Source: a virus | IMG/VR virus record: IMGVR_UViG_3300033153_003795 | Location: 1 to 63,869 of that record | Strand: one strand, 5' to 3' | DNA length: 63,869 nucleotides | Part shown: positions 5,585 through 56,883 of the stretch, in pieces | How the letters are laid out: each line of letters starts with the position of its first letter | Position numbering within the stretch: position 1 is the first letter of the stretch | Notes under the pieces: model-generated | What the model was told of the DNA's origin: nothing | Seen by the model: only the letters and a program-made list of their open reading frames with translations | Databases searched by the model: none | Program-made: the position numbers and the translations under genes

Positions 5585-5590
5585 AAACAA

Positions 5591-5667: not shown

Positions 5668-5668
5668 T

Positions 5669-6049: not shown

Positions 6050-6052
6050 AAT

Positions 6053-6128: not shown

Positions 6129-6140
6129 AAGAAGGAAATT

Positions 6141-6291: not shown

Positions 6292-6292
6292 T

Positions 6293-6367: not shown

Positions 6368-6371
6368 ATAT

Positions 6372-37416: not shown

Positions 37417-38232
37417 ATGGGTGGCGTAGTTGACGCTGTAAAAGACTTTGTCGATGATGTAGTTGAAGTAGTTGTAGATGTACACGTAGCTTTTATAGAT
37501 AATGTGCTAACTCCTGATATACTGATTGACTCCGTTCTTGACTTTGCAGAAGTAGCGACAGATGTTTTAACGCTTGGACTAGTTGACGATTTAACGGATG
37601 ATGTATTTGATTTTGCGCGTGACATAAATACTGGTATGGAATACCTAACAGACCAAGCATTGACTGGAGATTTAAACGCAATAGGCCAACTAATAGTCGT
37701 AGCGGGAAGTATAGCTCTAACTGTGGCGTCGTTTGGTTCGACTGCACCTGCTACGTCTGCAGTACTAGCCGGTATATCAGCAGGAATGACAAGTGGTGCT
37801 ACTGCTTTGCTTCTCTACAATGTAGTTATGATTACAACTGTAGCCATGAGTGTCTATAGCCTATACGGAATAGCAGTGTCATTTGCAGAATTAGGGGCTA
37901 TGATCGCTAGTGGAGGGCTTATGAGCCTATTCAGCCAATTAAATACTATAAAAGACGCTATGAACTTAGCTACTGTAAATAGTTGGGTGAACGGTACTAT
38001 GGGTAGATGGATGGCAGGAGGTGAGCTATATGATGCACCTAGAGCAGGAGATTTACTATTCAATCCTACAGGTACTCAAAATACTACTAAGTTCTTAGGA
38101 TTACAAGATACGAATAGCAACTTTTATATACAGACTAGTATATTAGGGCACTTTCACACGCCACATAAGCTAAAGTTTGGCGCAAAAGCAGGTGATGAAG
38201 GATTTAGTGTATCATCTTTGGTGAAAGGTTAG
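37417..38232 (+). CDS. Hydrophobic ejection/internal virion protein
   Basis: 271 residues. Two long apolar stretches, IGQLIVVAGSIALTVASFGS (about 91-110) and ALLLYNVVMITTVAMSVYSL (about 129-148), suggest insertion into a membrane. Position equals N4 gp53/gp52 (internal). May form part of a channel for genome and RNA polymerase ejection through the cell envelope. Confidence 0.55.
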   Translation: MGGVVDAVKDFVDDVVEVVVDVHVAFIDNVLTPDILIDSVLDFAEVATDVLTLGLVDDLTDDVFDFARDINTGMEYLTDQALTGDLNAIGQLIVVAGSIALTVASFGSTAPATSAVLAGISAGMTSGATALLLYNVVMITTVAMSVYSLYGIAVSFAELGAMIASGGLMSLFSQLNTIKDAMNLATVNSWVNGTMGRWMAGGELYDAPRAGDLLFNPTGTQNTTKFLGLQDTNSNFYIQTSILGHFHTPHKLKFGAKAGDEGFSVSSLVKG

Positions 38233-38249
38233 ATTCAAGAAACTTTTGG

Positions 38250-38255
38250 TATAAT
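38250..38255 (+). promoter_or_regulatory. Candidate late promoter
   Basis: TTTTGGTATAATGGAG: TATAAT 28 bases before ATG 38283. No -35 consensus; same box as upstream of other late operons. Confidence 0.45.
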
Positions 38256-38282
38256 GGAGATAATAATAATTAGGAGTGTGGT

Positions 38283-38900
38283 ATGTGGGAAGGATTAGCA
38301 GGTTTTGGTAGAAACGCGTTAGATTTTTTGAAAACTGGCGCAGGTCAGACTTTAGGCGGTGCTGCGTTAGGTGCAGGTGTAAGTGAATTGACTGGCGGTG
38401 ACTGGGAAACAGGTGCTGCGTTAGGTGGACTAGCAGGATTAGGTAATGCGTACTCATCTGGAGGCGGATTTGGCGGCGATACTTGGACAGGTAGCTCATT
38501 AGATAACGCTATGGCAGGTAGTGGTATGTTTGGGCAACCAGGACAACAATACCAAACACAAGCTAGTAAAGCAGCTACAGACTTAGGAAGAGCTTTTACT
38601 CCAGCGGAGTCTACGGCACTACAACAAGGATATGAAGGACTCGCTGCTAATCAACCAATGGGGCTAGCAGGTATGTACGATAAGTATAAAGGTCCTGTAG
38701 ATTTAGGGTTAAAGGGTTATGAAACGTACAGCAAAGCTCGAGACGCTAGTAAAAAATCAGATTTAGCTCAACGTGAAATAGACGAACAAGCTAAAATAAA
38801 TGCGTATAATATAGCTCAAGCTAAAGATGCAGATAGAAGACGAAGACAAACTGGAACAGGTGCAAGAGAAGGCTTTGCAGCTAGTTCTATGTTCAGATAG
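38283..38900 (+). CDS. Gly/Ala-rich internal virion protein
   Basis: 205 residues; residues 19-60 are Gly/Ala-rich and amphipathic (GAGQTLGGAALGAGVSELTG), followed by a helical basic C-terminus (KDADRRRRQTGTGAR). This is the composition of ejected podovirus internal proteins (T7 gp14-like, N4 gp52-like). Probably packaged and ejected. Confidence 0.6.
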   Translation: MWEGLAGFGRNALDFLKTGAGQTLGGAALGAGVSELTGGDWETGAALGGLAGLGNAYSSGGGFGGDTWTGSSLDNAMAGSGMFGQPGQQYQTQASKAATDLGRAFTPAESTALQQGYEGLAANQPMGLAGMYDKYKGPVDLGLKGYETYSKARDASKKSDLAQREIDEQAKINAYNIAQAKDADRRRRQTGTGAREGFAASSMFR

Positions 38901-38908
38901 GATAAATT

Positions 38909-40258
38909 ATGGCTATGAACAGATTTGACTACTCAGCTCCTAATCAAGTAAGATTCCAAGGTGTAGACCCTAGACTAATAGAACAAGCAGGTACATCTGC
39001 TGGTTCTGTAGCAGTTGGGAATATACTAGGTGAGATTGAAAAAAGCGATGCGTTAACAAGAGAAGCATTAATAAGAAAACAAGCTCAAGCTGATCGCGAT
39101 AGACTATACGGTTTAAAGAAAACTGCTGCTGATAGAGCACAGACTGAATATGAACGTAAACTTGCTGTCGATAAAGCACTATCTAGTATGATAGCTAAAG
39201 TTCCAAAGACAAAAGAACAACTAACTAAGAAAACTACTAAAGGTACTCCTGGTAATATTAAAGAAATTGAACGTATTCGTAGAGAGAATGAAGCAATAAA
39301 CCAAAGGCTAGGTATTACTGATACAGCTATGACTGAAGCGTCTGAAAAATATAGTGATATATACACTAAGCCAGCGTCTAAAAAATATGTAATAGAAAAC
39401 TATCCTTTGATGCCTAAAGATAGTAAACGTACTTATATGGAAGATATGGAAGGTAAGCGAGGTAGTGGGTTTAATTGGATGTTCGGCAACTACGATAAAG
39501 CAAGAAGAGTAGCTAGTGCGAAAGAGCCTGCAAGAGTTATGCCAGACGACTATAGAGAACAGTTACATAAACAGGCTATGGAAGAATCAGGACTAAGTGG
39601 TCTTATAAGTACACGTGAAGATTTATCAAGTAGACTACAATCACTACCTAAACTAGATAAAGGTGTTAAAGATAGAATAGAAACTATCTCAACTAGTGTC
39701 AATACAACTGATATAGATAAAGCAAAAGCTCTACGTGAATTACTGGTTAAAAGTGAATTACCTGGATCTGTGAAAATAGGAGCTCTTAAGAACATTAAAG
39801 ATATTTACCCTATACCAGAAAAACCTACAATATCTGAGCAACTGGCATTAGCAAAAGATAGAAGAGCGTTAGTAAAAGATAGTAAAACATTAAATGACTA
39901 TAAGTCTATTTATGCAGGTATCATGCCTAATAGTATTACTACTGTAGATGGTGCGGAAGCGTTCTCTAAAAACTACGAAAATATGTTGAAGAGACAAGGT
40001 AAAAAGACGTCTAAGTTTAACCTAGGCGAAAAAATGTTTACCGAACTTACTGTTAAAGATGTAGAAGACACTGATGCAGTTGACGCGTGGCTAACAAAAT
40101 ATGATTCACAACTAGCTAAAATGTCTACAAATGAGAAGAAGAAGTTATTTGCTGAGATGAAAGCTAGGTATGCACAAGAAGCAGGAACAATTGATTTAAG
40201 TGATTGGATTGGCGGTTCTGCTTTTGGTGATATCACAGACAAGTTTCAGTTAAAGTAA
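38909..40258 (+). CDS. Internal virion protein, helical
   Basis: 449 residues, nearly all charged helix/coiled coil (LTREALIRKQAQADRDRLYG). No enzyme motif. Sits directly before the giant RNA polymerase genes, as N4 gp51. Likely an ejection-apparatus protein. Confidence 0.6.
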   Translation: MAMNRFDYSAPNQVRFQGVDPRLIEQAGTSAGSVAVGNILGEIEKSDALTREALIRKQAQADRDRLYGLKKTAADRAQTEYERKLAVDKALSSMIAKVPKTKEQLTKKTTKGTPGNIKEIERIRRENEAINQRLGITDTAMTEASEKYSDIYTKPASKKYVIENYPLMPKDSKRTYMEDMEGKRGSGFNWMFGNYDKARRVASAKEPARVMPDDYREQLHKQAMEESGLSGLISTREDLSSRLQSLPKLDKGVKDRIETISTSVNTTDIDKAKALRELLVKSELPGSVKIGALKNIKDIYPIPEKPTISEQLALAKDRRALVKDSKTLNDYKSIYAGIMPNSITTVDGAEAFSKNYENMLKRQGKKTSKFNLGEKMFTELTVKDVEDTDAVDAWLTKYDSQLAKMSTNEKKKLFAEMKARYAQEAGTIDLSDWIGGSAFGDITDKFQLK

Positions 40259-40300: not shown

Positions 40301-42709
40301 ATGAGCAGATTTGATGTAACCAATTACTTAGCAGAGTCAGAAAAACTTGCACAAGATGTTGCAAGTACCCCAATAGATAAAACTACATTACTTAATAATA
40401 ATAAACAAAACAAACTTGATAGACTATCTAGTTACTCAGTAGGCTCAGTACGAAGCGTATACGATGCTGATACACTAACATTAAACCAAGATGAAGTATC
40501 TACTAGGCTAAGAGGTATAGATACTTTCGAAACACCTAAAAGTGGTGACTGGTTCAATAATCCCAACAACATTAAAAGACTAGACAAACAAAGACAACTA
40601 CTAGCAGCACAATCAGGTGTTGATCCATCTACTATAACTAATGAAGACATATTTCGTCGTGGAACAGAACAAACAGGAGAAGCACGTAGTGTACTAGGTA
40701 TGGGTGATAGTAGCTTACCGGCTTTTGTAGAATATGAGCAAGAATACTTAACACCATTAGAAAGACAACGTAACTACGGCAGAAATATAGGCTCAGTAAA
40801 GCCTTTAGCTGGACCATACTCATTACCGGATGATACTGAAGTATTACCAACGGATATTACTTTAGGAAAAGGACCTGTTGAAATAGGTACGGGTATTCGT
40901 GCATCAGATTTCGGTGAAGTTGATGATGATTCTATAGTTGGTGAAAGTGTAGATATAGCACAATCAAGTCTTATACAGCAGTACGGAAAAACTAACAAAG
41001 CCTTAAGAAAAGGATCTAGATGGTTAGCTGATAAGATAGGATTAGAAAAGGCTACTATAGACGAATGGCTACCAACAACCTCTGAAACAGGTACTATAGG
41101 ATTTGACGATATGCCATCTACCGATTTAGCTAAACGTGAAGTAACTGATAAATTGACTGGCGTAATGGCGAAGTCCAGAAAAGAACAACAACAAGGTATG
41201 GATAGTGCATTAAAGAATGTAGAAAAAGGTGAGTATTTAGATGCTGCTTGGGATACATTTAAAGTGCTACCGTATGTACTAGGTGATAGTACAGGTGAAA
41301 TAGCGAGTATGTTCGCAGGAGCTCCAGGTATAGCTACGGCAATAGCTGCTAGAGTTAGTGAAGACGCTGAAGTATACAAAGAAAACAACGGTAAAGAAGC
41401 TGATGCTGAGTGGGTACTAAAAAGTACTCTTGCGAATAGTGTTGCGTTGTTCGGTGAAAGATTTTTAATTAAGTCAGGTGTAGTTGGCGCGTTAGAGAAA
41501 GGTACAAGTAAATTTAAAAGACTTGGAGCTGTCGGATTATCTACAACAGGAGAAACTGTACAAGAATGGTATGACCAGATACAACAAGAGTACCTAACAC
41601 AAAAAGAAGGTGTTAAGGAACTGACAGAGATAGCTACGAGCCCTGAAGCACAGTTGGCAGCAATTACTGGTGGTGTAATGGGTGGTACATTGAAAGGTGC
41701 AGGTGAACTAACTGGCGCTACTTTTGACGCTACTAAAAAACTACCTGTAGATAAGCTAAAAGCAGAAATGGCACGTCGTAGAGAAGCTAAACAAACACCT
41801 GAACAAAAGAAAGCTGATAAGATAATAGAAGAGGAAAAAGCTACTACTAAAAGTGGCATAGAGCAGTTCTTAGATGTTTCAGATGAATTAGACGCTAAAG
41901 GTGAAACTGTTAAAGCTACTCAGGCTATTATAAGAGCATATAGCATGCTAGACGATGTTAAAGATGATACTGAACGTGCAAAATATGAAGCACGTGCAGA
42001 TAAGCGTCGTGAATCGATAAAAGCTAAACGAACTGCAGAACGAGAAGCTGTTATTGATAGACAAGATACAAAAGCTATTCAAGTGCTAGGCTCTAGTGAA
42101 GATGCTGTCAGTAAACTAAAAGAGCTACTTAGTACTGTAGATGACCTAGATAGCGATAAAGTAAATAGCGCGTTAGCTAAAGTATCGAAAGAGCTCGGTA
42201 TTAATATGGACGATATTAGTAAGATAAAAACGGAAGTCAAAGCAGAAAAATCCGCATTAGATGTTATCAAAAAGTCACAGATTGAAGTAGAAGGTGAAGT
42301 GGTTAGTGGACCTAAAGGTTATGAGACTTACTACGAAGGCTTGAAGAATGCTAAACTATTAGATGATAAAGAGGGTATAGAAGAATTTACAGGTAAGTTA
42401 GAATACTTTAAAGATAGCCAAACTAGAAAACGTGATAAACTAGAAACTGGTATAAAAGAAGTAAAAGCTAGCCTAATGGCAGATATAGAAAGAGATGCAA
42501 CTGCTAGAGGAATTAGCAAGGGACAAGCGTTAAAAGACTTTCTAAAAAGAAAGTTTAAACCAGTAGTTATTGAATATAGTGATACTGGTAAATCGTTTGA
42601 AGTAAACCCTAAAAATGTACTACAGAATATGTTAAATTCTGAAATTAGAGCAGGGGCATATTCGGTTGTAGATGCAGTAACTAACTCTATAGAGGCTATG
42701 GACAGCTAA
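40301..42709 (+). CDS. Giant ejected protein, part 1: N-terminal nuclease (SNase-fold) domain
   Basis: 802 residues. Residues about 45-180 show the full staphylococcal nuclease catalytic pattern: YDADT (D55, D57), RLRGIDTFE (R69, D74, E77), and NYGR (R161), with spacing identical to S. aureus nuclease (R35-D40-E43). Residues about 280-460 are Gly/Ala-rich amphipathic helices (AGAPGIATAIAARVSE). The C-terminus is Lys/Glu-rich helix. The frame ends at 42707-42709, but coding continues in +1 (see junction 42693-42709). Position and size match the N-terminal third of N4 gp50. Confidence 0.75.
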   Translation: MSRFDVTNYLAESEKLAQDVASTPIDKTTLLNNNKQNKLDRLSSYSVGSVRSVYDADTLTLNQDEVSTRLRGIDTFETPKSGDWFNNPNNIKRLDKQRQLLAAQSGVDPSTITNEDIFRRGTEQTGEARSVLGMGDSSLPAFVEYEQEYLTPLERQRNYGRNIGSVKPLAGPYSLPDDTEVLPTDITLGKGPVEIGTGIRASDFGEVDDDSIVGESVDIAQSSLIQQYGKTNKALRKGSRWLADKIGLEKATIDEWLPTTSETGTIGFDDMPSTDLAKREVTDKLTGVMAKSRKEQQQGMDSALKNVEKGEYLDAAWDTFKVLPYVLGDSTGEIASMFAGAPGIATAIAARVSEDAEVYKENNGKEADAEWVLKSTLANSVALFGERFLIKSGVVGALEKGTSKFKRLGAVGLSTTGETVQEWYDQIQQEYLTQKEGVKELTEIATSPEAQLAAITGGVMGGTLKGAGELTGATFDATKKLPVDKLKAEMARRREAKQTPEQKKADKIIEEEKATTKSGIEQFLDVSDELDAKGETVKATQAIIRAYSMLDDVKDDTERAKYEARADKRRESIKAKRTAEREAVIDRQDTKAIQVLGSSEDAVSKLKELLSTVDDLDSDKVNSALAKVSKELGINMDDISKIKTEVKAEKSALDVIKKSQIEVEGEVVSGPKGYETYYEGLKNAKLLDDKEGIEEFTGKLEYFKDSQTRKRDKLETGIKEVKASLMADIERDATARGISKGQALKDFLKRKFKPVVIEYSDTGKSFEVNPKNVLQNMLNSEIRAGAYSVVDAVTNSIEAMDS
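42693..42709 (+). other. +1 frame change joining part 1 and part 2 of the giant gene
   Basis: The part 2 frame is open from just after a TAG at 42690-42692, overlaps part 1 by 17 bases, and has no ATG, GTG or TTG until GTG 42858. The 55 codons between (LWTAKEVASKIATGEALAKA...) look coding and continue the Lys/Glu-rich helix. So a single-base insertion, a sequencing error or programmed +1 frameshift is likely. No strong slippery motif is visible. Confidence 0.7.
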
Positions 42710-42857
42710 AGAAGTAGCAAGTAAAATTGCGACTGGTGAAGCACTAGCTAAAGCAGACTTACAAGTACAGGATAACGAAGGCGCTAAAGTAGAGAAAGAA
42801 TTACAAATACTCAAAGAAGAAACAAAGATAGAGAAAGACTATACCAAAGCAGAAGAT

Positions 42858-45800
42858 GTGACATTAGAAACACGCTCTATTGATGAACAAATCGAAAGAA
42901 TGCAAGGCGAAAAAGAAGTAAAACTACAAGAGATTAATAAGTTTAAAGCAGATAGAAAAACTGCTAGTAAAGATGCTAAAGAATCAATCAGGTATGAGTT
43001 AGATAGCGCATACAGCGAGCTGGGTGATATGAACAGCGAACTTAGAATCCTTAATGAGAATAAAAGAGCTGTAATAAAGAAATTAAAAACAGATAAAGCC
43101 CAAAAGTTAATTGACGATTCAGCTAGTAAAGCAGAAGAAGTATTAGAAGCAAAAGGCGTTCCTGTTATAACAGAATGGGTAAATCCAGAGCTAAAGACCG
43201 AACTTGATACAAAAACTCAAGCGGTTAAGGTAGCTTTAGACAAGCTTATAGATCCTAGAACTACAGACTTTAGAGTCGATGAGTCTCCGTTTAGGTTACT
43301 AATGCAAGGCAAGAAAAAAGGTCAGTATCCTGTAGAAGTAGCAGAAGCGATGGCAATAACTATTAGTAGCTATTTAGGTGAGAGATATGGAGAGCTTAGA
43401 CTTAACGATGATACGCAAATAGCTAAGATGCTAGGGTTTAAGAATGGAACTAAGATTCCTGCTAAAGTACGAAGAGAGTTGGTTAAAGCCGGTAGACTAG
43501 AAAGTAATGAAGCAGCAGGATTAGGGCGTAGTATAATTAAGCTATTAGGTATAAATGTTAAAGATACTGCAGATTACGATTTACAAGCTAGAATAGAAGT
43601 AGCAGCCGGTGCAACTGCGTTAGCTGTAATGGAAGATATGGGACTAGTAGTTAGAGACCAGAGTATTACTGTAGGCACTATGGCAGGACTAGCTAGTGAT
43701 GTTAGAGGTGAGACTACTACGAAGACTGTAGAAAATGCCGATAAACCTGTAGCAATGACGAAAATTCATCCTAAAGTCGGTAAGAAATGGGTAGATAAGG
43801 CTAAAAGTAATAAGGAGTTCTCTGAAAAGCTTGATGAAGAATTAGACGTAAATATACACGAGAAGACACCTCGTTACAGTAAGAAGCGTAAAGCAACACA
43901 CCACGTAACTAGAAATGCTGAGAAGTGGACAGAGCTTACTAAGAAACAACAAGAAGTACTTGATACAGCTGAGAATAGAGCGCATGAAATAGACCTAGAT
44001 AACCTAGTAGTACTTAGAGATATGTGGGGAGACGTTGTAGAAGATGGTAGCGAGCTATCTGATAGACAAATAGAAGTTGCTGAATTATTTGGTTGGACTA
44101 GTCCAGAAAATAGCCATATTGACATAAGACCTAATATTGAAGCTAAGAATAGAGAAATTATAAGTAGTATACAAAATCTTTTAGAGTTTGCTGAAAATGT
44201 AGGAAATAAGAATGTTTATTTTGATTACTTTTTCAGTAAGAATGGTAGATTCTTTATTGACAGCTCGAAGATAAACCCACAGACAGATAAACTACATAGG
44301 TTTATATTAGGAACTAAAGAGCCTAAGAAGAATAGAATAGTTACAGATAAAACTAAAGATGCATTTAAGATAGGGGTTGTACAAGCATTCGATGGATCTA
44401 AAGTAGTAGAGTTTGCAGAAGAGAGTGATGGCGTAGAAGAGATAGTAAATGGTGAAAATATTAGAGGGTTAGGAGCTATTGATAAACAATCACAAGTAGA
44501 TAACATCAAACAATTTGAAGAGATTCTTAATAACGAAGTGGTTAAAGAAGCTGTTGAAAATCCTACTGCTGAGAACATACTAAAAGCTGTACAAGGTGTA
44601 GACCACCCTAGTCATGCGACTATGGCGATTATGGAATTAGCTAAGTATAAGGCAGATGCAGACTTTGAAACTAATATGACAATGGAGACAGATGCTGTTA
44701 CGTCAGGGTTTATACTAGGACTATTAACTAATCCTGTTATGGCTTTTGGTAAACTAAAGAAATGGTTAGCTAAAGGTGGTGTATGGTTTGGTGAAAACAA
44801 GTACAATACTTACGGAGACTGGAGAGCTAAAGGTAAAGACTCGTATGAAACGGGTGCTGAGTTAGCTACAGAAGAACTAGAAGTAGCGATAAGCAATGCA
44901 CCTGAAAAGGGATGGATAAACCATATCGTAGGTGAAATTGACAGAAAGTTTATGAAGAATCCGTTTATGGTATTTATGTACGGAGCTGGTATAGCTAGTA
45001 TTAAGAGAGCTATTAGTAGTACTGCTGTAGAAAAAGTAATGGAAGACTTAAGTAATTCTGATAAAGTAGATACTACACTGATAATACTGATAAATGGTAT
45101 AGACAGTTCTATAAAGAGTTTAGAGATAGCGTTAGCAGAGGCTAAGACGCCTAAACAGAAAAAAGGTATTGCGTATGCTATTAAGACTAGAAAACAGACG
45201 TTAGCGAAGTTAGAGACTATGTCTGGCTTTATTGAGTCACGTACTGGTACACAGAAAGATAAAGCAAAAGTTAAAGTAGCTGAGCGTATAAGAGAAACTA
45301 AAGTAGACTTCTTCTACAAAGCTGGTAAAGACTTGTCTATGGATGAAGCAACCGCTAAGAACGAGCTAAGTGCAGCGTTAAAAAGTGTACAAGATGTAGT
45401 GTTCAATACAACTAGAGATACTTACGGAACTGCTGTAGCAACGTCTATGGAGAGCGAGTTTAGTGAGATGGTAGAAATGCGAAAAGCTATGAATAGTATG
45501 TTTGTAGGTATGTATGGAGCATTTAGACATGAGTTTGATATTCGTTTGAAAGAAGCACAAGGCGATAGAAAGAAACCTAGCACAGAACAGGTAGATAGTG
45601 TATTAGAAACTATGATGAAGGAAGGTAAAATTCCAGGTATCATGACAGTAGAAGCTGAGAACGTATACGAGAAAGCTCCTATTATGAAGACAGATAGGAT
45701 TAAAGCTAGACAAGATAGTCAAGTACAAATTAAAACTAAGCCTCAAAGAACAGTACATCCATTGATATACGATATGGTAGCTAATCCTACAGCAGGAGCA

Positions 45801-46730
45801 GTTGTTAACATACACTATTTAGATGGAGCTCTTATTATGAAAATAATTGGAGATAGTTCTGGATTTGGTGTGCATGACGCATATGTAACACACGTTAATA
45901 ATGTGGTAGATGCTACTAAAGCTTATAATAAACAGACATGGAACTTAACACAACAGTTTAATATGTTAGAAAGAGTACAAGAAGAGTTTGGTAAAGCTAT
46001 AAAGAGTAGTAATGAAGATATTGTGAAAGACGCTATATGGAATAACTTTGTTGAAACGTTTGGTGAGCCTAAAGGTGAAGATGCACCTACTAGAGATAGC
46101 ATGTATGAAGATGCTGTTAAGGTTGTTAAGGATAGTATAACTACTATTAATAAGAACAAAGCTGAGATGAAGAAACAAGGCGTTACTATAGCGCATATGG
46201 CTGGACCTGAAGGTAGTATGTATACGGTTGAAGGTACTGAACCAGTAGTAGACACTAGACGTAAAATAGAACGAGTTGAAGAGCCTGTAGTAGAAACTAA
46301 AGAACCTACGAAAGCGAATGAGCCAGTGAAGGCGATAGACGAGATAATAGAAACAACTACCAACGCTTCACAGCTAACTAACGTTAAAGACGCAAAACAA
46401 GCCCTAAAAGAATATAGAAAACGTGCTAGAGAAGTTAAGAAACTTACAGGTAAAGCGGCGGTTAAAGTAAAGAAGCCTGCAGGTGAGTCTAAGAATCCTG
46501 CTGTAGCTGAAGTACAACGACAATGGGAAGAAGGTATAATTACAAGTGAAGCTGAGTATAATGAAAAAATACAGAAAGCATTTAAAACTAAGGGAGTAGA
46601 TAACAGTAAAGACTACTCAGCAGAAGATATAGCAGAACTTGAACGAATGCACGAAGCAGATACTAAGGCAGAAGAAGATACAATACTAGTAGATAAAGCT
46701 AAAGAAGCTATAACAAGGTGTAAAAAATAA
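42858..46730 (+). CDS. Giant ejected protein, part 2: N4-type virion RNA polymerase core
   Basis: 1290 residues from GTG 42858 (the frame is open from 42693). T7/N4-type polymerase motifs, in order: SKNGRFFIDS (R464; the TxxGR motif), TDAVTSG (D612; motif A, metal ligand), R696-x3-K700-x7-Y708-G in RKFMKNPFMVFMYGAG (motif B), GVHDAYVTH (H1006, D1007; motif C). The R-x3-K-x7-Y spacing equals N4 (R666, K670, Y678, from memory). N4 packages this enzyme and ejects it to transcribe early genes. Residues 1130-1290 are a charged linker. Confidence 0.82.
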   Translation: MTLETRSIDEQIERMQGEKEVKLQEINKFKADRKTASKDAKESIRYELDSAYSELGDMNSELRILNENKRAVIKKLKTDKAQKLIDDSASKAEEVLEAKGVPVITEWVNPELKTELDTKTQAVKVALDKLIDPRTTDFRVDESPFRLLMQGKKKGQYPVEVAEAMAITISSYLGERYGELRLNDDTQIAKMLGFKNGTKIPAKVRRELVKAGRLESNEAAGLGRSIIKLLGINVKDTADYDLQARIEVAAGATALAVMEDMGLVVRDQSITVGTMAGLASDVRGETTTKTVENADKPVAMTKIHPKVGKKWVDKAKSNKEFSEKLDEELDVNIHEKTPRYSKKRKATHHVTRNAEKWTELTKKQQEVLDTAENRAHEIDLDNLVVLRDMWGDVVEDGSELSDRQIEVAELFGWTSPENSHIDIRPNIEAKNREIISSIQNLLEFAENVGNKNVYFDYFFSKNGRFFIDSSKINPQTDKLHRFILGTKEPKKNRIVTDKTKDAFKIGVVQAFDGSKVVEFAEESDGVEEIVNGENIRGLGAIDKQSQVDNIKQFEEILNNEVVKEAVENPTAENILKAVQGVDHPSHATMAIMELAKYKADADFETNMTMETDAVTSGFILGLLTNPVMAFGKLKKWLAKGGVWFGENKYNTYGDWRAKGKDSYETGAELATEELEVAISNAPEKGWINHIVGEIDRKFMKNPFMVFMYGAGIASIKRAISSTAVEKVMEDLSNSDKVDTTLIILINGIDSSIKSLEIALAEAKTPKQKKGIAYAIKTRKQTLAKLETMSGFIESRTGTQKDKAKVKVAERIRETKVDFFYKAGKDLSMDEATAKNELSAALKSVQDVVFNTTRDTYGTAVATSMESEFSEMVEMRKAMNSMFVGMYGAFRHEFDIRLKEAQGDRKKPSTEQVDSVLETMMKEGKIPGIMTVEAENVYEKAPIMKTDRIKARQDSQVQIKTKPQRTVHPLIYDMVANPTAGAVVNIHYLDGALIMKIIGDSSGFGVHDAYVTHVNNVVDATKAYNKQTWNLTQQFNMLERVQEEFGKAIKSSNEDIVKDAIWNNFVETFGEPKGEDAPTRDSMYEDAVKVVKDSITTINKNKAEMKKQGVTIAHMAGPEGSMYTVEGTEPVVDTRRKIERVEEPVVETKEPTKANEPVKAIDEIIETTTNASQLTNVKDAKQALKEYRKRAREVKKLTGKAAVKVKKPAGESKNPAVAEVQRQWEEGIITSEAEYNEKIQKAFKTKGVDNSKDYSAEDIAELERMHEADTKAEEDTILVDKAKEAITRCKK

Positions 46731-49700
46731 TGAGCTGTATAATAGAAAACTACAAAGAATGGGTAAAAGACGGACTAGCAGAAGGTAAAACTACAGAACA
46801 ACTAGATGAGTACTGGAAAGTAGCTATGCTAGAGTCTGCTAGTTCTGAAATGAAAGCTACTATTGATAGAGTACTAAATGGTAATGTAACACAAAATGGT
46901 AGTATTAATATAGCGATTCAGTACAATAATGGAAAAGCCAAACTAACTAAGATGTTAAACATAGAAGTAGAAAAAGATGGATATAGGCTATTTACGCCTA
47001 ATGGAAGCTATATGTTTGAATACGGTAAGAGTATAGGTAAACCATTATATAGCACGAAAGTAGAAAAAGTAATTGTACCAGTAATGGTCAATACAGTAGA
47101 CTTAGAAAACGCTTCAGATCCTAGGAACTTGAAAGTACTGAGAACAATGCCTTCTGATAAGGTAGAAACAGTATACGAAACTTTAGCTAGTGATAGAGAC
47201 GCAGAGATTAAAGGCGACTATATTAAACAAGCTGAGCTAGTTAAAGATCCTACAAAAGCTATAGAATTAGCAGAACGATTAGCAGAAAGTGATAGTGTTA
47301 ATATTAGTAGTGCACAGAAGAATAGGTTGATAAATATACTAGGTACGATAACAAATCCTTTGAAGAACTTTATACCAGAACTGTCTATATACTTGAATGA
47401 GAAAGCTGAAAAGACTGGCGGTGTTATAGTACTAGCAGGTAAGAATGCAGGTATATACATTAATAAAGCAGATAGAGCACCTACTGATGTAACACAAATG
47501 AGCGCAGTAGAGGCGTATGTACATGAAATGATACATAGTACAACAGCGTATGCTATAAGACAGCGTGGAGCTAAAGTAGCCGGAACTATACAAAGACTTA
47601 AGACATTACGAACTAAAGTAATGAAAGAACTTACAGCAGAGCACTTGTTACCAGATGTGTATATTGATAGAGATGCTGAACTAGCTAACGCAGAAGAGAT
47701 TTTAGACTATATGAATGGAAACTTAGAAGAGTTTTTAGCTATAGCGTTAACGAATGAAAAAGTATTTAGTAAGCTAAAGGATATGAAAGCATATAGAGAC
47801 CCTAAAGAAGATTATAAGAACTTATGGGAACAAGTACTAGACTTTGCCGGTAGACTACTAGATATGGTATTTAGAGTAGCTAGAAAAGAAGGTAAAGAAT
47901 TTAAGAACGATGAACTATTGATGAAGTTAATGCTAGAGCTTGCAGAGAATAATAATAGAATAGTAGAAGTAGAAAAGCAAGGAATACTTAGTAGAACGTT
48001 TGAGGCTAAAGATAAATTAGACGAAATGGGTGCTGCAATGCTTAAAGAGCTAGAGAAGCTTGCCAAAAAAGGTAAAGTTATTGATATGCCACAGAATATG
48101 ACTAGAGTTCAAGAAGTGGTATGGCTAGGTAGGAATCTATGGAAATTCTTAGTGAATCCAGATACAAGAGATGCTTTTGAGTGGATATTGGCTACATACG
48201 GTTTACAACGAGAAGGTACAGTACAGTCGTTTATAAGAGCTGTTAGAGATAACGATAGTTTACAGAATATAGTTGAAAGAATGGGGTTATTGTCAGGACA
48301 GATAGATAAGCGAAGAGAAGATAAGGCTATAGAAGTAAGTATAATGGCTACGCAGGGGTTTAATAAAAGACCTACAGATAATGAGTTTAAAGCGCTAACG
48401 TTAGCAGGATTAGATACAGAACTTGGTAATATATATGAAGCTTATGGTGATGAACGTATAGCAGAACTGTTGTCAAATAGTGAAGCACTAGCAGAAGAAG
48501 CATCGAAATTGCGTAAAGAATTAAGAGCAAAAGTAAGTAAAGGTATAGGAAACTACTATGTAGCACAAGCGGATGGACTAGGTAGGTATATGGCAAGTCA
48601 TATAAGTTCAAGATCACAAGTATTCAATGCTGAAATGATAGCTAGTCTTAAAGGTACGTTGGTTGCAGATAAAGGTACAACAGACCCTGAAATTATAGGA
48701 TTGATTGATACATTAGCAACACTAGAAGGATTAAAGTATACAGATAAAAGCTCTAAAGACGTAGTGGCAGACTTGATAAACAAAGAACCAGATGGTGTAA
48801 AGAACGTAATGTACTTGCATAGGTCGTTTGTGGAGACATCGAAGAAAGAGTTATTTGATGGAGATAAGATAGCCCATAGAATAAAAGGATATAATAAAGA
48901 GATATTTGATGATACGATAACACTGAAAGTAGCTCCAGTAATAGATAAGGCAGACTTAGAAAAAGAAGGGTTCACATTAGATAGAGTACTAGAAAAAGCT
49001 AAAGGTGATCGTAGTACTACAACTATGGCGCTATATATAAATAAACATCATATGACACAAAGTTTTAATAGGTCTGCAATGAGAATGACAGACTTAAATA
49101 GAAAAGGTACAAGTTTAGCACATGCAGGTCCAGGTGAAGTGGATATGAATCGTTGGGCTAAAACTAAACGTGATGTAGCAGCTATAAAAGCTGATGCACA
49201 GAAAGAAACTACTGCTATGTTTAAGGGTACATATAAGTTTAAAGAGACGGGTGGACTAGCGCCTGTATATGACCAAAATGGTGTAGTAATAGATTATAGA
49301 TATATGATGCCAAAAGCAGAGAAAGCTAGGTTGTTAAAACAAGATTTAAGAGCTAATACGATATTAGGTAGAAATATGGCCAGTATTCAAGATAAAATAG
49401 AATCTAGTCAATTTAACAAAGAGCTGGTAAGTATTATTAGAGATGATATGGAGAATTATGTTGAGGGTAGTACACTAGGTAAGAATTTGAAAGAGTATAT
49501 TGTAGTAGGAAAAGATTCAACTAATAAAGATATTCAAGATATTTATAATATATTACCTAAAGAAGTTAAACGTGATATAGAAGAAAATGGGGAGATTGCG
49601 GTTAGACGGGAATTGTTGTATGCGTATTTTGGATTTAGAGATCCTAGTATAGTAGGCCTAGTAGGTATTAAGCTACTACCAAAATCAATAAAAGAACTTG

Positions 49701-50668
49701 TTAGACAAGCTGAGAATTGGTGGAAAGAAATAGTAAAGATACATAAAGTAGATATTATTATTAGAACTCCAATGGTTCTTATAGGTAACATAATATCGAA
49801 TTATATGTTAGGTATATTAGCAGGTCATAGACCGGATCAGATTGCTAAATATCAGTGGGATGGTTTTAGAGAGATAAAGCAATATCAGAAGAATTTGCAT
49901 GAGCTTATTAGATTGAAAGAGTCGGAAAAGTCGGGTAATGTAATGAAGTATGATTTAAAGCGTATTAAGCAGTTGGAGAATGAAATTGAGATGAGTCCTG
50001 CGAAGGATTTAATTGATGAGGGATTGTTTCAAGCGATTATAGAGGATGCGTCTGTAGAGGACCTTAAAGTAAGTAATAAGATTACTCAAAAGAAAGATGA
50101 ATTGTTAGAGAAGTATGGTGCGCCTGAATGGGTAAAAGATGGGTCTAATATACTATGGTTAACAGATAAAACTAAGTTTTTTAAGATGATGACAACTGCT
50201 ACACAGTATAGTGATTTTGTTGCTAGGTATGCACAGTATAACTTGATGATGGATAAAATGAAGAGGAATTATGTGAAGGAGACTGGTAAGCAGCCTGATG
50301 TAATTGCGACTGATAAGATGAAAGATAAGGCGATAATTACGGTTAAAGAAGCGTATATTAATTATGATTTACCGAGTAGTAAGTGGACACAGTATGCTAA
50401 TGATATAGGATTAGTGATGTTTACAAAGTATTTTGAGAGGATACAGAGAGTTATTAAAACTAACAGTCAAGATAAACCTATGACAATGCTTATGGCATTA
50501 TTAGGGCAGGCATATTTGACTGGTGATATAGAGGATATAACAGACCAAAGTATCTTTACTAAGAACTATGGCGGGATGTTCCATTTAGATCCGTTTGAGC
50601 ATATAATGGGAGCTGTTACGCCTACATTAGGTGAATACGCTTATGATGCCTATAAGATGGTTAGATAA
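46730..50668 (+). CDS. Giant ejected protein, part 3: C-terminal domain with HExxH
   Basis: 1312 residues; ATG 46730 overlaps the previous TAA (TAATG). HEMIH at residues 265-269, then NLEEFLAIALTN about 67 residues later (a third ligand Glu), reads as a gluzincin-type zinc metalloprotease site. The rest is helical and corresponds in position and size to the C-terminal domain of N4 gp50, needed there for encapsidation. Whether it is joined to part 2 in the particle is not known. The end overlaps the convergent gene by 8 bases. Confidence 0.7.
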   Translation: MSCIIENYKEWVKDGLAEGKTTEQLDEYWKVAMLESASSEMKATIDRVLNGNVTQNGSINIAIQYNNGKAKLTKMLNIEVEKDGYRLFTPNGSYMFEYGKSIGKPLYSTKVEKVIVPVMVNTVDLENASDPRNLKVLRTMPSDKVETVYETLASDRDAEIKGDYIKQAELVKDPTKAIELAERLAESDSVNISSAQKNRLINILGTITNPLKNFIPELSIYLNEKAEKTGGVIVLAGKNAGIYINKADRAPTDVTQMSAVEAYVHEMIHSTTAYAIRQRGAKVAGTIQRLKTLRTKVMKELTAEHLLPDVYIDRDAELANAEEILDYMNGNLEEFLAIALTNEKVFSKLKDMKAYRDPKEDYKNLWEQVLDFAGRLLDMVFRVARKEGKEFKNDELLMKLMLELAENNNRIVEVEKQGILSRTFEAKDKLDEMGAAMLKELEKLAKKGKVIDMPQNMTRVQEVVWLGRNLWKFLVNPDTRDAFEWILATYGLQREGTVQSFIRAVRDNDSLQNIVERMGLLSGQIDKRREDKAIEVSIMATQGFNKRPTDNEFKALTLAGLDTELGNIYEAYGDERIAELLSNSEALAEEASKLRKELRAKVSKGIGNYYVAQADGLGRYMASHISSRSQVFNAEMIASLKGTLVADKGTTDPEIIGLIDTLATLEGLKYTDKSSKDVVADLINKEPDGVKNVMYLHRSFVETSKKELFDGDKIAHRIKGYNKEIFDDTITLKVAPVIDKADLEKEGFTLDRVLEKAKGDRSTTTMALYINKHHMTQSFNRSAMRMTDLNRKGTSLAHAGPGEVDMNRWAKTKRDVAAIKADAQKETTAMFKGTYKFKETGGLAPVYDQNGVVIDYRYMMPKAEKARLLKQDLRANTILGRNMASIQDKIESSQFNKELVSIIRDDMENYVEGSTLGKNLKEYIVVGKDSTNKDIQDIYNILPKEVKRDIEENGEIAVRRELLYAYFGFRDPSIVGLVGIKLLPKSIKELVRQAENWWKEIVKIHKVDIIIRTPMVLIGNIISNYMLGILAGHRPDQIAKYQWDGFREIKQYQKNLHELIRLKESEKSGNVMKYDLKRIKQLENEIEMSPAKDLIDEGLFQAIIEDASVEDLKVSNKITQKKDELLEKYGAPEWVKDGSNILWLTDKTKFFKMMTTATQYSDFVARYAQYNLMMDKMKRNYVKETGKQPDVIATDKMKDKAIITVKEAYINYDLPSSKWTQYANDIGLVMFTKYFERIQRVIKTNSQDKPMTMLMALLGQAYLTGDIEDITDQSIFTKNYGGMFHLDPFEHIMGAVTPTLGEYAYDAYKMVR

Positions 50669-52022: not shown

Positions 52023-52269
52023 CAGAACTATCTTTAGCGATATTGTATAACATAGTTAGTACATGTGTTTCAGATTCTGACGGTAAGCTATCGAGTCTTG
52101 TATACTTTAATAGTCTGTTATTCACTAGTGTTAATGCTAAGTCTTGTACAAGTTGTACATCGTCTTCTGGTGTATCAGCGGGTTCTGTATTAGTAGGATT
52201 TTCATCAAGACTTGTCTCAATTTCGTCGAGCCAGTTGATGAAGTCTTCTACAGTGTTTATGTTTTTCAT
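52012..52269 (-). CDS. Small acidic protein, unknown
   Basis: 85 residues starting MKNINTVEDFINWLDEIETS; acidic with a helical end. It overlaps neighbours on both sides. No domain recognised. Confidence 0.55.
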   Translation of the reverse strand: MKNINTVEDFINWLDEIETSLDENPTNTEPADTPEDDVQLVQDLALTLVNNRLLKYTRLDSLPSESETHVLTMLYNIAKDSSDAT

Positions 52270-52793
52270 AAATTTTCCTTTATTTTTTTCATGATTATAT
52301 CTTTAGGTAGTAAGTTATAGCAAAAATAGCTACTACTAAAAGTTATTTTATTATTGGGTCTTCCCTCTGGGTTGACAAACTTTATACGTCTATCGAACAT
52401 TAAAAGCTGTAATTGCTTGTGTTCGAATAATTGCTTCGGAGCGGCGTCGTTCAGCCAGGTATTAGCCATCAAAAGGGCAAATGGGCGTCCAAGATCAATA
52501 GCTCTTTCAAAGAAAGCTCTCTTATTCTTGAATGGAGGATTTGAGATAAGTATATCCCATTTTTCCGGTTCATAATCGAAGAAGTCTTGACCATCTTCTA
52601 TATGGCTATAGACTACTTTGTTAGTCTTAGAGATGAGCTTAACGAATTCGCTGTCCTTAGTGTCAAAAGGACACCATACTGTAGCAAATTTAGGTATATA
52701 TTCTAGTATAGGTTCTACACCATAAGCAGGTGTGAAATTTTCGTCATTACCTACTTTATTGTATAGCACGTGTTGGCTATTTATATCGCTCAT
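52266..52793 (-). CDS. N6-adenine methyltransferase-like protein
   Basis: 175 residues. ATVWCPFDTKDSEF (about 37-50) is a divergent SAM-binding region and ISNPPF (83-88) is the motif IV of N6-adenine DNA methyltransferases. The following KNKRAFFERAIDLGRPFALL agrees with phage enzymes of this type. No target recognition domain is obvious, so it may methylate a short site or be RNA-directed. Confidence 0.7.
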   Translation of the reverse strand: MSDINSQHVLYNKVGNDENFTPAYGVEPILEYIPKFATVWCPFDTKDSEFVKLISKTNKVVYSHIEDGQDFFDYEPEKWDILISNPPFKNKRAFFERAIDLGRPFALLMANTWLNDAAPKQLFEHKQLQLLMFDRRIKFVNPEGRPNNKITFSSSYFCYNLLPKDIIMKKIKENL

Positions 52794-53566
52794 AATAGAT
52801 CCTTAATTGTTTGAACAAACTCTCTTGTCTCTTTTTGAGTATGAGAATCTAGTCTCTGATCTATAAAATGAGGGAACGCATTAGGGTTATTAGTATAGCC
52901 TCCAAGAGTAGACACTCTGTTTTGAAGCATGTCTGCTCCTCTGTCCCACACTTCTTTACGAGTGATACCTCTAGCTTTCATGAAGGATTTAAGTAGTTCT
53001 GGTGAAGACATAAATACTCTATCATTCCACGCTTCTTGTTTTTCTGCAGGAGTATAGGTTGATGCTATGCCACTATAGAATTTCTCTACCTCTGGTGGCA
53101 TCCAATAGCCTCTATCACATACTCCGTAACGTTGTGAATGTGATACGGATGTGATTTGATTATGTGTGGATAGTTGGCCGTAGATGAAATATGGTGTCTC
53201 GCATTTGAATGTGCGATAGTTAGTGAAGTCTACTGCTTCTAGACATTGCTCTACTGTCCAGCCCCAATTGAGAAGTTCTCTCATAGTTGTATGGTAAGTT
53301 CCTTTATCATCATTGAAGAACCCAAACCATTGTACTACACCATATGCCCACGATTTAGTGTCAGGTACCAGTGTAACACATATAGTACATGGTACGTACT
53401 CTAATACTCTCGAAGCTTTACCACCATACGATTCTTTTAGGAGTCTATTCCAGAGTTTTTCTGCTGACTTAGGTGCTTTGTCTCTAACGACGGATGCACA
53501 CTCAGCTATGTAGTTTTGTAGGTCTACAAGCGAGTTGCTCTTAGGTATGATTAGTTCTGCTGTCAT
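52790..53566 (-). CDS. Divergent ThyX-like protein (flavin-dependent thymidylate synthase)
   Basis: 258 residues. The ThyX signature RHRxxSxNExSxRY is represented by STHNQITSVSHSQRY (residues 133-147): S-x-R-Y is kept but RHR and NE are replaced. The C-terminal AFPHFIDQRLDSHTQKETRE (about 229-247) matches the conserved ThyX end (FxxFxxLRxxxxAQxEIR). So the fold is likely present, with a changed active site. It might be a divergent thymidylate synthase or a repurposed relative. Confidence 0.6.
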   Translation of the reverse strand: MTAELIIPKSNSLVDLQNYIAECASVVRDKAPKSAEKLWNRLLKESYGGKASRVLEYVPCTICVTLVPDTKSWAYGVVQWFGFFNDDKGTYHTTMRELLNWGWTVEQCLEAVDFTNYRTFKCETPYFIYGQLSTHNQITSVSHSQRYGVCDRGYWMPPEVEKFYSGIASTYTPAEKQEAWNDRVFMSSPELLKSFMKARGITRKEVWDRGADMLQNRVSTLGGYTNNPNAFPHFIDQRLDSHTQKETREFVQTIKDLL

Positions 53567-53569
53567 AAA

Positions 53570-53842
53570 CTACTCACCTAAGTGCTTAGTTACGGTTTCT
53601 TTAGAAAGCACTGAGTTTGCTAGTAACAACGCTAAATGGTAGTCTACTACAGGTTTAAGTAAGTACTGTGGGAGTACGGTTATGTCTAGCCTGCGATTAG
53701 TGATATTGTATAGTTTTTTATATTTTGGGTTTTTAAGGTTTGGTAATGTAAAGTAGTAATTTGCGCGACTTTTTAGTGTTGCCATCTTTAGTGCTTTACG
53801 GGCCTTTGCTTTACCTTTATTTTGTCGAGTTCTCAAGGTCAT
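53570..53842 (-). CDS. Basic small protein, unknown
   Basis: 90 residues from ATG 53842, chosen because AAAGGAA precedes it; a start at 53875 would overlap the PhoH gene. Very basic start (TLRTRQNKGKAKARKALKMA). Might bind nucleic acid; no family recognised. Confidence 0.55.
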   Translation of the reverse strand: MTLRTRQNKGKAKARKALKMATLKSRANYYFTLPNLKNPKYKKLYNITNRRLDITVLPQYLLKPVVDYHLALLLANSVLSKETVTKHLGE

Positions 53843-53852
53843 TATAATTCCT

Positions 53853-55124
53853 TTATTTATAGACTTCAGCAACAAATTTTGCTAATGCTGATCTATATAT
53901 CTCATCTAGTTTGATGTAACTAAATTCTGGCGCTTGACCAAAGTGTTGAAATAGGGGTTTAAATCCTTCATTGCCTCTATTCATACCGTAAGTTTGACCT
54001 TGGGTATCGCCGATAAGTAGGATCTTGCCACCCTCGGCTATTCTGGACATAACCATTTTTGCGGCGTTTTCGTCTACAAGTTCCCATTCGTCGATTACCC
54101 AGCATGCATCATGGAGTGAATCACCTTGAGCTTCGTCGATTTCTTTGACAGAGAAATGTTCAGACCATACCTTATCGGAGTTAGTTCGAATATTTTCTCC
54201 GTTGCTGTCTTTTTTTAGTTTGTCGCCACGTTTGTCTAGAAGGAATTCAAGGTTACTCTTAATACCGCCTAAGTGACCGCCCATCTTATCTTCAGATGTA
54301 CCAGGTTTGTAGCCTGTGTATAGGTCTCTGTTAGTACTTACTGGAGGTTTTGATACATAGATAGTGTCATAGACTTGGTAGCGTTTTTGACCGACTGTGC
54401 AGGCTAGTACGCCAGCTAGTGCAAGTAATGTTTTACCTGTTCCTAGTTCGCCGTCTATTACTGTAAGAGGTACATCGTTGTCAAATACCGCATGGAGTGC
54501 ACACATTTGTACGGAATCCATAGGATCGATAAGTACACCAGCGTCTCTGAAAGGTTTAATGCTTTGAGAGATGCGGTTGACCTCGCCATTGCGATTAAGC
54601 CAGATGTCGTTCTTGTCGACTATACGGTCTATGATACAGTACATATTTTCTTTCATGTCTACTTGGAAGCGTTCGTTGAATTCTTCTGTTTGGACTTGTT
54701 TGATTTGTACATAACGTTTTTCATAGTCTACATCACCTTCGATGGTAACGTAGCCTTTATACTCGTAGTCTATTTCACTATCGGCTTCGAAATCAGAGAT
54801 TGGAATACCGTGAGCTTTTGCGATAATACGTACAGCAATATCGTTGCTAAGTATACTGGCGTTAGCTTCTTTAGTATCTTGAATAATACACTCGTCAGGA
54901 GATTCCCCTAGTAAGTTAGGAATATTCAAGATTTCGATTTTGTCGTCTTTAAACATAAACCATATATTACGTATAGCCGCTTGAGCTGCACGTTTTAGAT
55001 TAGGGTTACGTTTTAGGTTGTCGAGTTCACGTATGACTGTAAAACTTAGTACGAAATCTTTAGTAGTATCAAATACGATATTCGGTTCATCGATTAGTAT
55101 GTTGGTGTCTAAACTAATTTTCAT
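53853..55124 (-). CDS. PIN-PhoH fusion (PhoH2-type RNase/helicase)
   Basis: 423 residues. The PIN domain is residues about 1-120 (LDTNILID with D6 and D12; D95 in LSNDIAVRI). The PhoH ATPase follows: Walker A GELGTGKT (225-232), Walker B near CWVIDEWEL, and later LLIGDTQGQ and IKLDEIYRSALAKFV. PhoH2 proteins unwind and cut RNA. Common in aquatic phages, perhaps to degrade host RNA. Lies 2 bases from the ClpP gene. Confidence 0.85.
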   Translation of the reverse strand: MKISLDTNILIDEPNIVFDTTKDFVLSFTVIRELDNLKRNPNLKRAAQAAIRNIWFMFKDDKIEILNIPNLLGESPDECIIQDTKEANASILSNDIAVRIIAKAHGIPISDFEADSEIDYEYKGYVTIEGDVDYEKRYVQIKQVQTEEFNERFQVDMKENMYCIIDRIVDKNDIWLNRNGEVNRISQSIKPFRDAGVLIDPMDSVQMCALHAVFDNDVPLTVIDGELGTGKTLLALAGVLACTVGQKRYQVYDTIYVSKPPVSTNRDLYTGYKPGTSEDKMGGHLGGIKSNLEFLLDKRGDKLKKDSNGENIRTNSDKVWSEHFSVKEIDEAQGDSLHDACWVIDEWELVDENAAKMVMSRIAEGGKILLIGDTQGQTYGMNRGNEGFKPLFQHFGQAPEFSYIKLDEIYRSALAKFVAEVYK

Positions 55125-55125
55125 G

Positions 55126-55701
55126 TTAGCCTTTCAAATGTTTCTGTCTATTACCCCATCTCTCTAGTACTTGAGAACTGTTGAGCCAGATATCGTGGTC
55201 TTCTATAACGTCAGCTATTTCTTCTTCTGTTAAGAAGCCTGCGTAGTAGTCACGAAAAGACTCGTTGATTTCATTGTTTACGAAATCCATTTGGTCTTTA
55301 GCTTCTTTACCTTTACCTTGTACTCCACCGGAGTAGTTGTGAATCATAAATTGGGTGTAAGGAGTGACTACAATATCATCACAAGCCATTGTTAATACGG
55401 TTGCAGCAGAAGCTACGTCACCTGATAGGTGTCCTATAATAGTCGCTTTTGACTTGAGCATTGCGTAGTAAAGCATATTTGCTGAAGAGATATAGCCACC
55501 AGGGTTATTAATATGTATATGAAATACATCACCTTTTTGAGCTTGGCTTAGTATGAAACATAGTTCGTTGTAGTTTTCAGGTACGTCAATCCCATTAGTT
55601 AGGTATACGTGTGCTACTCTTCCATCTTTAGATCGAACTATTGGTACATAGTCGTCAAAAACATTTACTTTATCTTTTGGTAGTTCAATTTGAAATTCCA
55701 T
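55126..55701 (-). CDS. clpP: ClpP-like serine protease
   Basis: 191 residues. NNPGGYISSANMLYYAML (about 65-82), GDVASAAT with catalytic S98, and FMIHNYSGG with H121, are the S14 family core; the Asp is expected in the C-terminal part. In lambdoid phages ClpP-like proteins act as head proteases, but this gene lies far from the capsid genes and beside PhoH, so it may instead act on host proteins. Confidence 0.82.
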   Translation of the reverse strand: MEFQIELPKDKVNVFDDYVPIVRSKDGRVAHVYLTNGIDVPENYNELCFILSQAQKGDVFHIHINNPGGYISSANMLYYAMLKSKATIIGHLSGDVASAATVLTMACDDIVVTPYTQFMIHNYSGGVQGKGKEAKDQMDFVNNEINESFRDYYAGFLTEEEIADVIEDHDIWLNSSQVLERWGNRQKHLKG

Positions 55702-55840
55702 TAATTTCCTTTATTATATTTTCTGCTGTGTTTGGTGTTACTTCTATTGAAATAAAAGGTATACTATTTGCGACTAAAAAATTGAATATTTCTTCGTCTT
55801 TAGCTCTAGCTTCTTTCAGTGTTTCCGATCTGCCGTACTA
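55685..55840 (-). pseudogene. C-terminal remnant of the P-loop kinase beyond an amber codon
   Basis: After the TAG at 55840-55838 the same frame stays open for 50 further codons to TGA at 55685, giving YGRSETLKEARAKDEEIFNF and a typical strand-helix end. This matches how the family continues, so a full gene was ended by one TAG. It overlaps the ClpP start by 17 bases. Confidence 0.7.
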
Positions 55841-56224
55841 TTGATAAGGATGTGTTTCCACATTTCTTTTAAGAAATACGTTTAAGTTCTCGTAAGTACT
55901 GTGTAGTTTTACTGAGAAGTCTATAAACGCTTGTGTTGGAAATTTTGTGTTAGTCTTATCGATGTAGTTACATCCCATCACAAATGGGCTATCGTGTACT
56001 GCGTAGTCGACTGAGCCTTGTAAGCGTACCATCCTATGATGTTGTTCACCTAGTATATGTACTTGGTCTTTTAGACGTGTAAGTTCGTTACTGTATGTAA
56101 GGTCTTTAGCATATTCTTGCAAGAGCTCTACTTTAGTACCGTTCTTCTTTAATTGCGCAAAGATTTCAGCTGCCGTAGTAGACTTACCTGTTCCAGGACC
56201 GCCAAATAAGTTGATATTAAGCAT
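55838..56224 (-). CDS. P-loop ATPase/kinase-like protein, interrupted by in-frame TAG
   Basis: 128 residues from ATG 56224, chosen for its GGAG 8 bases before. INLFGGPGTGKSTTAA (Walker A) at the very N-terminus. Then GEQHHRMVRL and VDYAVHDSPFVMGCNY with a Walker B-like region. This is the AAA_28/NadR-type nucleoside-kinase pattern seen in phages. It stops at TAG 55838-55840 after ETHPYQ, although the next 50 codons remain in frame. Function may be lost, or TAG is read through. Confidence 0.7.
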   Translation of the reverse strand: MLNINLFGGPGTGKSTTAAEIFAQLKKNGTKVELLQEYAKDLTYSNELTRLKDQVHILGEQHHRMVRLQGSVDYAVHDSPFVMGCNYIDKTNTKFPTQAFIDFSVKLHSTYENLNVFLKRNVETHPYQ

Positions 56225-56874: not shown

Positions 56875-56883
56875 TTAACATCC

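Follow-up and report, generated by a model that had tools for sequence, protein, structure and literature searches.

How many polypeptides make up the virion RNA polymerase (vRNAP) of the phage represented by IMG/VR virus record IMGVR_UViG_3300033153_003795? The window analyzed here is that entire record, a virus contig of 63,869 bases. The usual state in N4-like phages is one vRNAP chain of 3,200-3,500 amino acids (aa). An earlier note on the window had described three consecutive plus-strand frames of 802, 1290, and 1312 codons (frames 1-3 below), with a +1 frame change between the first and the second and TAATG between the second and the third. It had read them as the N-terminal, polymerase, and C-terminal parts of an N4-type vRNAP, encoded separately. 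This layout was confirmed (Table 1). We found that the break between frames 2 and 3 is, on sequence comparison, a real and conserved gene split, located in the linker between the RNA polymerase (RNAP) domain and the C-terminal domain (CTD). In the split vRNAPs of this phage and its relatives, every chain end created by a split carries a cysteine (Cys), in proteins practically devoid of this residue elsewhere. The break between frames 1 and 2 is probably a frameshift or a contig error.

Identity of the polymerase

Frames 2 and 3 matched the PHROG family phrog_2206 ("virion RNA polymerase") far above chance, with E-values of 6e-83 (profile positions 848-2033 of 3406) and 8e-155 (positions 2227-3397 of 3406), respectively. 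The match of frame 1 to this profile was weak (E 5e-5, positions 338-594); the same frame shared 39% identity over 597 aa (E 9e-112) with the upstream (N-) chain of L101 (L-numbers are labels for contigs of relatives). The polymerase motifs named in the earlier note are real: all six residues are conserved and align with those of the N4 mini-vRNAP. Searches of the PDB with profiles retrieved the N4 mini-vRNAP (2po4, E 7.8e-42) for the polymerase part and full-length N4 gp50 (9pnr, E 8e-74) for the C-terminal part. Structure prediction, which had been proposed as a check, gave the same answer. The best Foldseek match in the PDB to an AlphaFold2 model of the polymerase part (predicted local distance difference test score 72) was the N4 mini-vRNAP 3c46 (E 1.2e-22), with T7 RNAP a weaker match (1e-12). 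The CTD model, of moderate confidence and low over its first ~170 residues, matched N4 gp50 9pnt (E 5.6e-20). An HExxH motif, as described for the C1 subdomain of N4 (PMC12633501), was identified in frame 3. Profiles, catalytic residues, and predicted structures thus uphold the assignment to the N4-type vRNAPs, with N-terminal, polymerase, and C-terminal parts.

An N4-like portal, a tape-measure-like gp57, a major capsid protein, and a family A DNA polymerase are present in N4 gene order, and by its portal, gp57-like, capsid, and DNA polymerase genes the phage belongs in or beside the Schitoviridae. It is a marine-type N4-like phage, and its nearest named phage is Alteromonas phage AD45-P1 (62% identity in the portal, 52% in the DNA polymerase). 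DNA-level comparison with known phages gave no match. The vRNAP of the window is a member of the gp50 family by descent, not by chain organization: it departs from two family traits, namely the single chain of ~3,500 residues (the CTD is separate) and the absence of Cys (one is found on each side of the split). Members of this family travel in the virion, are ejected, and transcribe early genes from hairpin promoters.

Breaks in vRNAP genes

The RNAP-CTD cut is common to the window, AD45-P1, and about 25 metagenomic relatives, including L017/L101 (2,322 + 1,337 aa), L092-L102, L140, L143, L149, L150, L156, L158, L207, L213, and others. The vRNAP of AD45-P1 consists of two intact open frames, 2,481 + 1,409 aa (NC_021532.1 90623-102305), labeled in GenBank only by a "potential frameshift" misc_feature. 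The cut site corresponds to N4 residues 2102-2123, a disordered linker (PMC12633501). A second cut site, near the linker between the N-terminal domain (NTD) and the RNAP domain (N4 907-1006, with the exact site placed by homology alone), is used in Alteromonas phages PT11-V19 and R22Y and in L134, L135, L203, and L205. The two chain genes of the latter four are separated by 2.9-7.2 kb of other sequence holding unrelated genes. Six systems (L095, L112, L154, L155, L157, and L199) have three chains, the third being an additional HExxH-bearing module that lies between the RNAP and CTD chains (Table 1). These middle chains are apparently duplicated C1-type (zincin-like) modules with an HExxH of their own. 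Alignments were needed to recover relatives, as frame 2 used as a lone query against IMG/VR gave no matches. A search seeded with the PT11/R22Y chain did not find further relatives.

It has been suggested that the splits of AD45-P1 and of Shigella phage pSb-1 are due to gene calling or read-through, and the frames were concatenated (Zheng et al., PMC10654107). Extended to all breaks, this would leave one chain as in N4. Some breaks do resemble artefacts, namely those of pSb-1, that of L106, and that between frames 1 and 2 of the window, whose frames 1 and 3 are in the same phase. However, the split recurs in >25 contigs, and its junctions take different forms (ATGA, TAATG, gaps, or other genes spanning kilobases); a start codon is present in each. 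The downstream chains keep an M-x-C start within otherwise unconserved sequence, and end cysteines occur at 38/38 interfaces and at none of the artefact-like breaks. We therefore consider a single chain throughout to be highly improbable, and the published reading of these splits as annotation errors needs correction. Slippage on the A6 run or read-through at 46719-46730 was disfavored relative to separate initiation; junctions differ widely in other systems.

The break between frames 1 and 2 is of another kind. The first 55 codons of frame 2, ahead of 42858, contain no ATG, GTG, or TTG, yet homology begins near 42762, which makes the GTG at 42858 a poor start (counted from it, frame 2 spans 42858-46730, 1290 aa). 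All relatives compared are continuous at this position, with one upstream chain of about 2,000-2,900 aa. The break lies in the poorly conserved, variable NTD-RNAP linker and has no Cys on either side. Because the linker is variable, relatives are continuous, and both a start codon and the Cys signature are missing, this break is probably a frameshift or sequence error rather than a gene boundary. A programmed frameshift at 42693-42709 was dropped as unsupported, since no known +1 slippery motif was seen by eye and no conservation was found. The proposal that the three frames equal three domains was accordingly not borne out, the first break being unshared and within a linker. Encoding in more than one frame stands; division into three separate parts is not supported, as the first break is probably no gene boundary. 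The product set is likely two chains (NTD+RNAP and CTD). Elsewhere, L174 (156-1547, 1511-13219) has what looks like another frame break, within the NTD, and its second frame lacks a nearby ATG at the start; a Cys stands just 5' of the stop and none just after the likely start on the other side.

Cysteines at the ends of split chains

The absence of Cys from N4-like vRNAPs is known, and earlier papers connect it with the route of these proteins through tail and periplasm (PMC3715699, PMC2784036, PMC3915230). In our set of 65 distinct one-chain vRNAPs, 61 were free of Cys after the first ATG (62/65 with a later start in L185). The Cys-bearing exceptions are L125 (one Cys) and the Cys-rich L031 and L035. 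The latter two (L031:89-12223 and L035:2-12205) encode one-chain relatives of ~4,040 aa with 20-25 cysteines, which are perhaps ejected in another way.

Our census of split vRNAPs covers 32 systems with 38 interfaces and 116,112 residues. We call chain ends created by a split "inner" and natural ends "outer", and score a Cys as terminal if it lies <=11 residues from the end. Inner C-termini carried such a Cys in 38/38 cases and inner N-termini likewise in 38/38, compared with 0/22 outer N-termini and 0/32 outer C-termini. Only 2 internal cysteines were found in all 116,112 residues; for comparison, the Cys content of other window genes and of other genes in relatives is ~1%. For genes other than the vRNAP on these contigs, the base rate for a terminal Cys was 8.5% for the first 11 residues and 11.2% for the last 11. 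The window follows the rule with one Cys in each chain, at 46719-46721 and 46736-46738, neither of which had been remarked upon in the earlier description. Middle chains of three-chain systems have one Cys at each end. Only two residues before reference residue 258, M1 and C3, are invariant among nine C-chains (25-36% identity to the reference). In a non-redundant set of CTD-bearing chains <3,000 aa with complete 5' ends, an N-terminal Cys was present in 33/33 apparently genuine cases and 0/2 artefacts. The artefact-like breaks of pSb-1, L106 (ambiguous bases), and window frames 1 and 2 have no Cys. The end-Cys rule separates genuine splits from sequence errors.

The rule is obeyed at two different split sites, in several lineages, and also where unrelated genes separate the chains (L134, L135, L203, L205). 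It was obeyed as well by a contig fetched later from another collection, L223 (..ATDHC-stop / MTICTNPK), a modest test given that this is an AD45 relative. L223 (CALIBI010000067.1) is binned as a Sulfolobales archaeon yet holds an AD45-like phage vRNAP, and is almost certainly a mis-binned phage contig. A CTD tree, uncertain in some of its long branches, shows no fewer than 6 changes of the split state, and 6/6 independent pairs agree with Cys (p 0.031). One vRNAP without Cys, the single chain of L151, is nested beside the split L150 (99-100% support); here fusion deleted both ends. The literature searched contained no earlier report of N4-like phages whose split vRNAPs carry cysteines or disulfides. 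The pattern is the lasting finding of this work.

Could the cysteines be without function, arising by drift or by overlap with the ribosome-binding site of the next gene once chain ends escape the constraint that excludes Cys? A possible ribosome-binding site of the next gene, a Shine-Dalgarno-like motif, is indeed close to 18/38 C-terminal Cys codons. The other 20/38 are not near such a motif, for which reason a by-product of ribosome-binding sites was rejected, and the N-terminal cysteines are left unexplained by it. Outer ends, which should be equally free, have Cys in 0/54 cases. Given base rates of 11% and 8.5%, 38/38 and 38/38 have chance probabilities of <1e-36 each, although related systems are not independent, and the 6/6 independent contrasts are concordant. 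Absence of function is very unlikely on these grounds.

A proposed disulfide-joined ejection protein

Each side of a cut has one Cys, and the proteins are otherwise purged of this residue; from this we infer an end-to-end disulfide. We consider it probable that the vRNAP consists of two polypeptides (NTD+RNAP and CTD) whose end cysteines are joined by an interchain disulfide. The gene was divided within the flexible linker that connects the polymerase to the CTD. The avoidance of Cys in one-chain vRNAPs presumably reflects their threading through tail and periplasm. If the Cys at the C-terminus of the upstream chain bonded with that at the N-terminus of the downstream chain, a single covalent thread would be re-created, so that both parts could be packaged or ejected together, as in N4. 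Half of the C-terminal cysteines are followed by Lys, which would favor thiol reactivity.

A metal shared between the chains, as in a zinc-hook-like site formed by the ends of neighboring copies, would be another way of joining them. Two cysteines per interface and ~4 vRNAP copies per N4 virion (PMC12633501) permit four-Cys sites, and such a site would work in the reducing cytoplasm. The ends lack conserved CxxC or His partners, and the Cys lies anywhere between 0 and 10 residues from the end, a spread more in keeping with a flexible staple than with a fixed site; we regard a metal site as improbable. Homotypic cross-links between copies, or bonds tying each chain to another virion protein, would be compatible with several copies per virion and accessible terminal cysteines. 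This is in our view no likelier than a metal site: every interface has Cys on both of its sides and the middle chains have it at either end, the arrangement that pairing across the cut predicts, and the adjoining ejection-type genes are Cys-free in the window and many relatives.

The disulfide could also set the timing of ejection. It has been proposed that the N4 vRNAP is ejected as beads on a string, and contact with the CTD inhibits transcription (PMC12633501). In phage Milano, disulfides in the tail sheath and baseplate hold the virion and need reduction for function (PMC10811340). An end-to-end disulfide would keep the split string covalent outside the cell and open in the reducing cytoplasm, where reduction would release the RNAP from the CTD, which is autoinhibitory in N4, or from an NTD bound to the membrane. 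We tentatively suggest, giving it somewhat less than an even chance, that fission repeatedly adds end cysteines and that the product is a disulfide-stapled, ejectable thread from which cytoplasmic reduction releases the polymerase, i.e., a redox-timed, self-disassembling ejection protein.

Several points weigh against this interpretation. The evidence for a disulfide consists of the paired cysteines themselves, read from sequence, and with two at each interface, metal binding between copies or homotypic cross-links could also account for them. The chains assemble in a reducing cytoplasm, and the bond would need a virion, post-lysis, or periplasmic setting. L203 and L112 carry one internal Cys each, and L031/L035 are Cys-rich one-chain relatives. 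The clear re-fusion, L151, lost its cysteines through deletion, so selective loss is not demonstrated.

The passage of a 380-kDa enzyme through a ~35 Å phage tail is an open question (PMC12633501). Cysteines practically confined to the cuts point to covalent continuity of the chain as a requirement for ejection, and the two residues provide a simple, testable handle on this process. They also suggest an evolutionary route from one chain to several that are still covalently joined.

Features of the window

Directly upstream of frame 1 are three Cys-free late genes, inferred from gene order to encode other ejection proteins (gp51/gp52-like). Beside the polymerase cluster, the minus strand at 52266-59260 holds DNA methyltransferase, ThyX-like, PIN-PhoH, ClpP-like, and B12-dependent ribonucleotide reductase-like genes. 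Eleven tRNA genes are clustered at 5201-6447, and homing endonuclease genes lie shortly before (HNH-type, 26333-27022) and just after (GIY-YIG-like, 29868-30746) the portal gene. Motifs in frame 1 (DADTL..RLRGID..YGR, 40301-41050) resemble by eye those of staphylococcal nucleases; this reading was rejected, having neither Pfam nor PDB support.

Table 1. Features of the vRNAP locus in the window and middle chains of relatives. Residue numbers in frame 2 follow the earlier note and count from GTG 42858; open-frame numbers count from 42693.
Feature	Position	Strand	Remarks
Three late genes	37417..40258	+	271, 205, 449 aa; directly 5' of frame 1
Frame 1, NTD part of vRNAP	40301..42709	+	802 aa; ATG start; 0 Cys; phrog_2206 match and identity to L101
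Passage from frame 1 to frame 2 (+1)	42693..42709	+	Sole interval allowing passage; in NTD-RNAP linker; no Cys either side
Frame 2, linker, single-subunit RNAP domain, C-terminal tail of upstream chain	42693..46730	+	1345 codons open
Catalytic Arg, NGR	44247..44249	+	R464 = open-frame 519 = N4 R424
Catalytic Asp, motif A TDAVTSG	44691..44693	+	D612 = open-frame 667 = N4 D559
Motif B	44943..44981	+	R696/K700/Y708 = open-frame 751/755/763 = N4 R666/K670/Y678
Catalytic Asp, motif C VHD	45876..45878	+	D1007 = open-frame 1062 = N4 D951
AAGG, possible ribosome-binding site for frame 3	46715..46718	+	By eye
TGT, only Cys of upstream chain	46719..46721	+	Third residue from end (..AITRCKK-stop)
TAATG, upstream stop overlapping downstream start	46728..46732	+	Genuine, conserved split (from sequence)
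Frame 3, separate CTD chain (C1 with HExxH, and C2)	46730..50668	+	1312 aa; ATG start; same phase as frame 1
TGT, only Cys of downstream chain	46736..46738	+	Residue 3 (MSCIIENY..)
HExxH (HEMIH), C1 subdomain	47522..47536	+	
Middle chain, L095	L095:8265-9491		Between RNAP and CTD chains
Middle chain, L154	L154:6601-9540		Between RNAP and CTD chains
Middle chain, L155	L155:3370-5997		Between RNAP and CTD chains
Middle chain, L157	L157:3370-5820		Between RNAP and CTD chains
Middle chain, L199	L199:4397-7429		Between RNAP and CTD chains
Middle chain, L112	L112:7538-9463		Between RNAP and CTD chains

Comparison with known systems

The vRNAP of Shigella phage pSb-1 is, like that of the window, annotated as three adjacent frames. 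Its breaks have no Cys, one of them lies inside the HExxH region, and other genes of this phage are also broken; they look like sequence errors and served as a negative control. Escherichia phage N4 gp50 (Schitoviridae; PDB 2po4, 3c2p, 9pnr, 9pnt) shares with the window the catalytic residues, the RNAP and CTD folds, the HExxH of C1, the domain order, the gene position after the portal, tape-measure, and capsid genes, and the near-absence of Cys. It differs in being one 3,500-aa chain with zero Cys, whereas in the window the CTD is separate and each side of the cut has one Cys. Alteromonas phages PT11-V19 and R22Y also have split chains with single end cysteines (..MCNGK-stop / MHKPNC), but the cut is near the NTD-RNAP linker and the CTD is fused to the RNAP; only the 2,083-aa chain was treated as vRNAP in the R22Y paper (PMC11705849). 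The nearest named relatives are Alteromonas phages AD45-P1 to P4 (Efbeekayvirus), which lack the break between frames 1 and 2 and share with the window the split at the RNAP-CTD linker, with a Cys on either side (..KHCKQ-stop / MTICTNPK).

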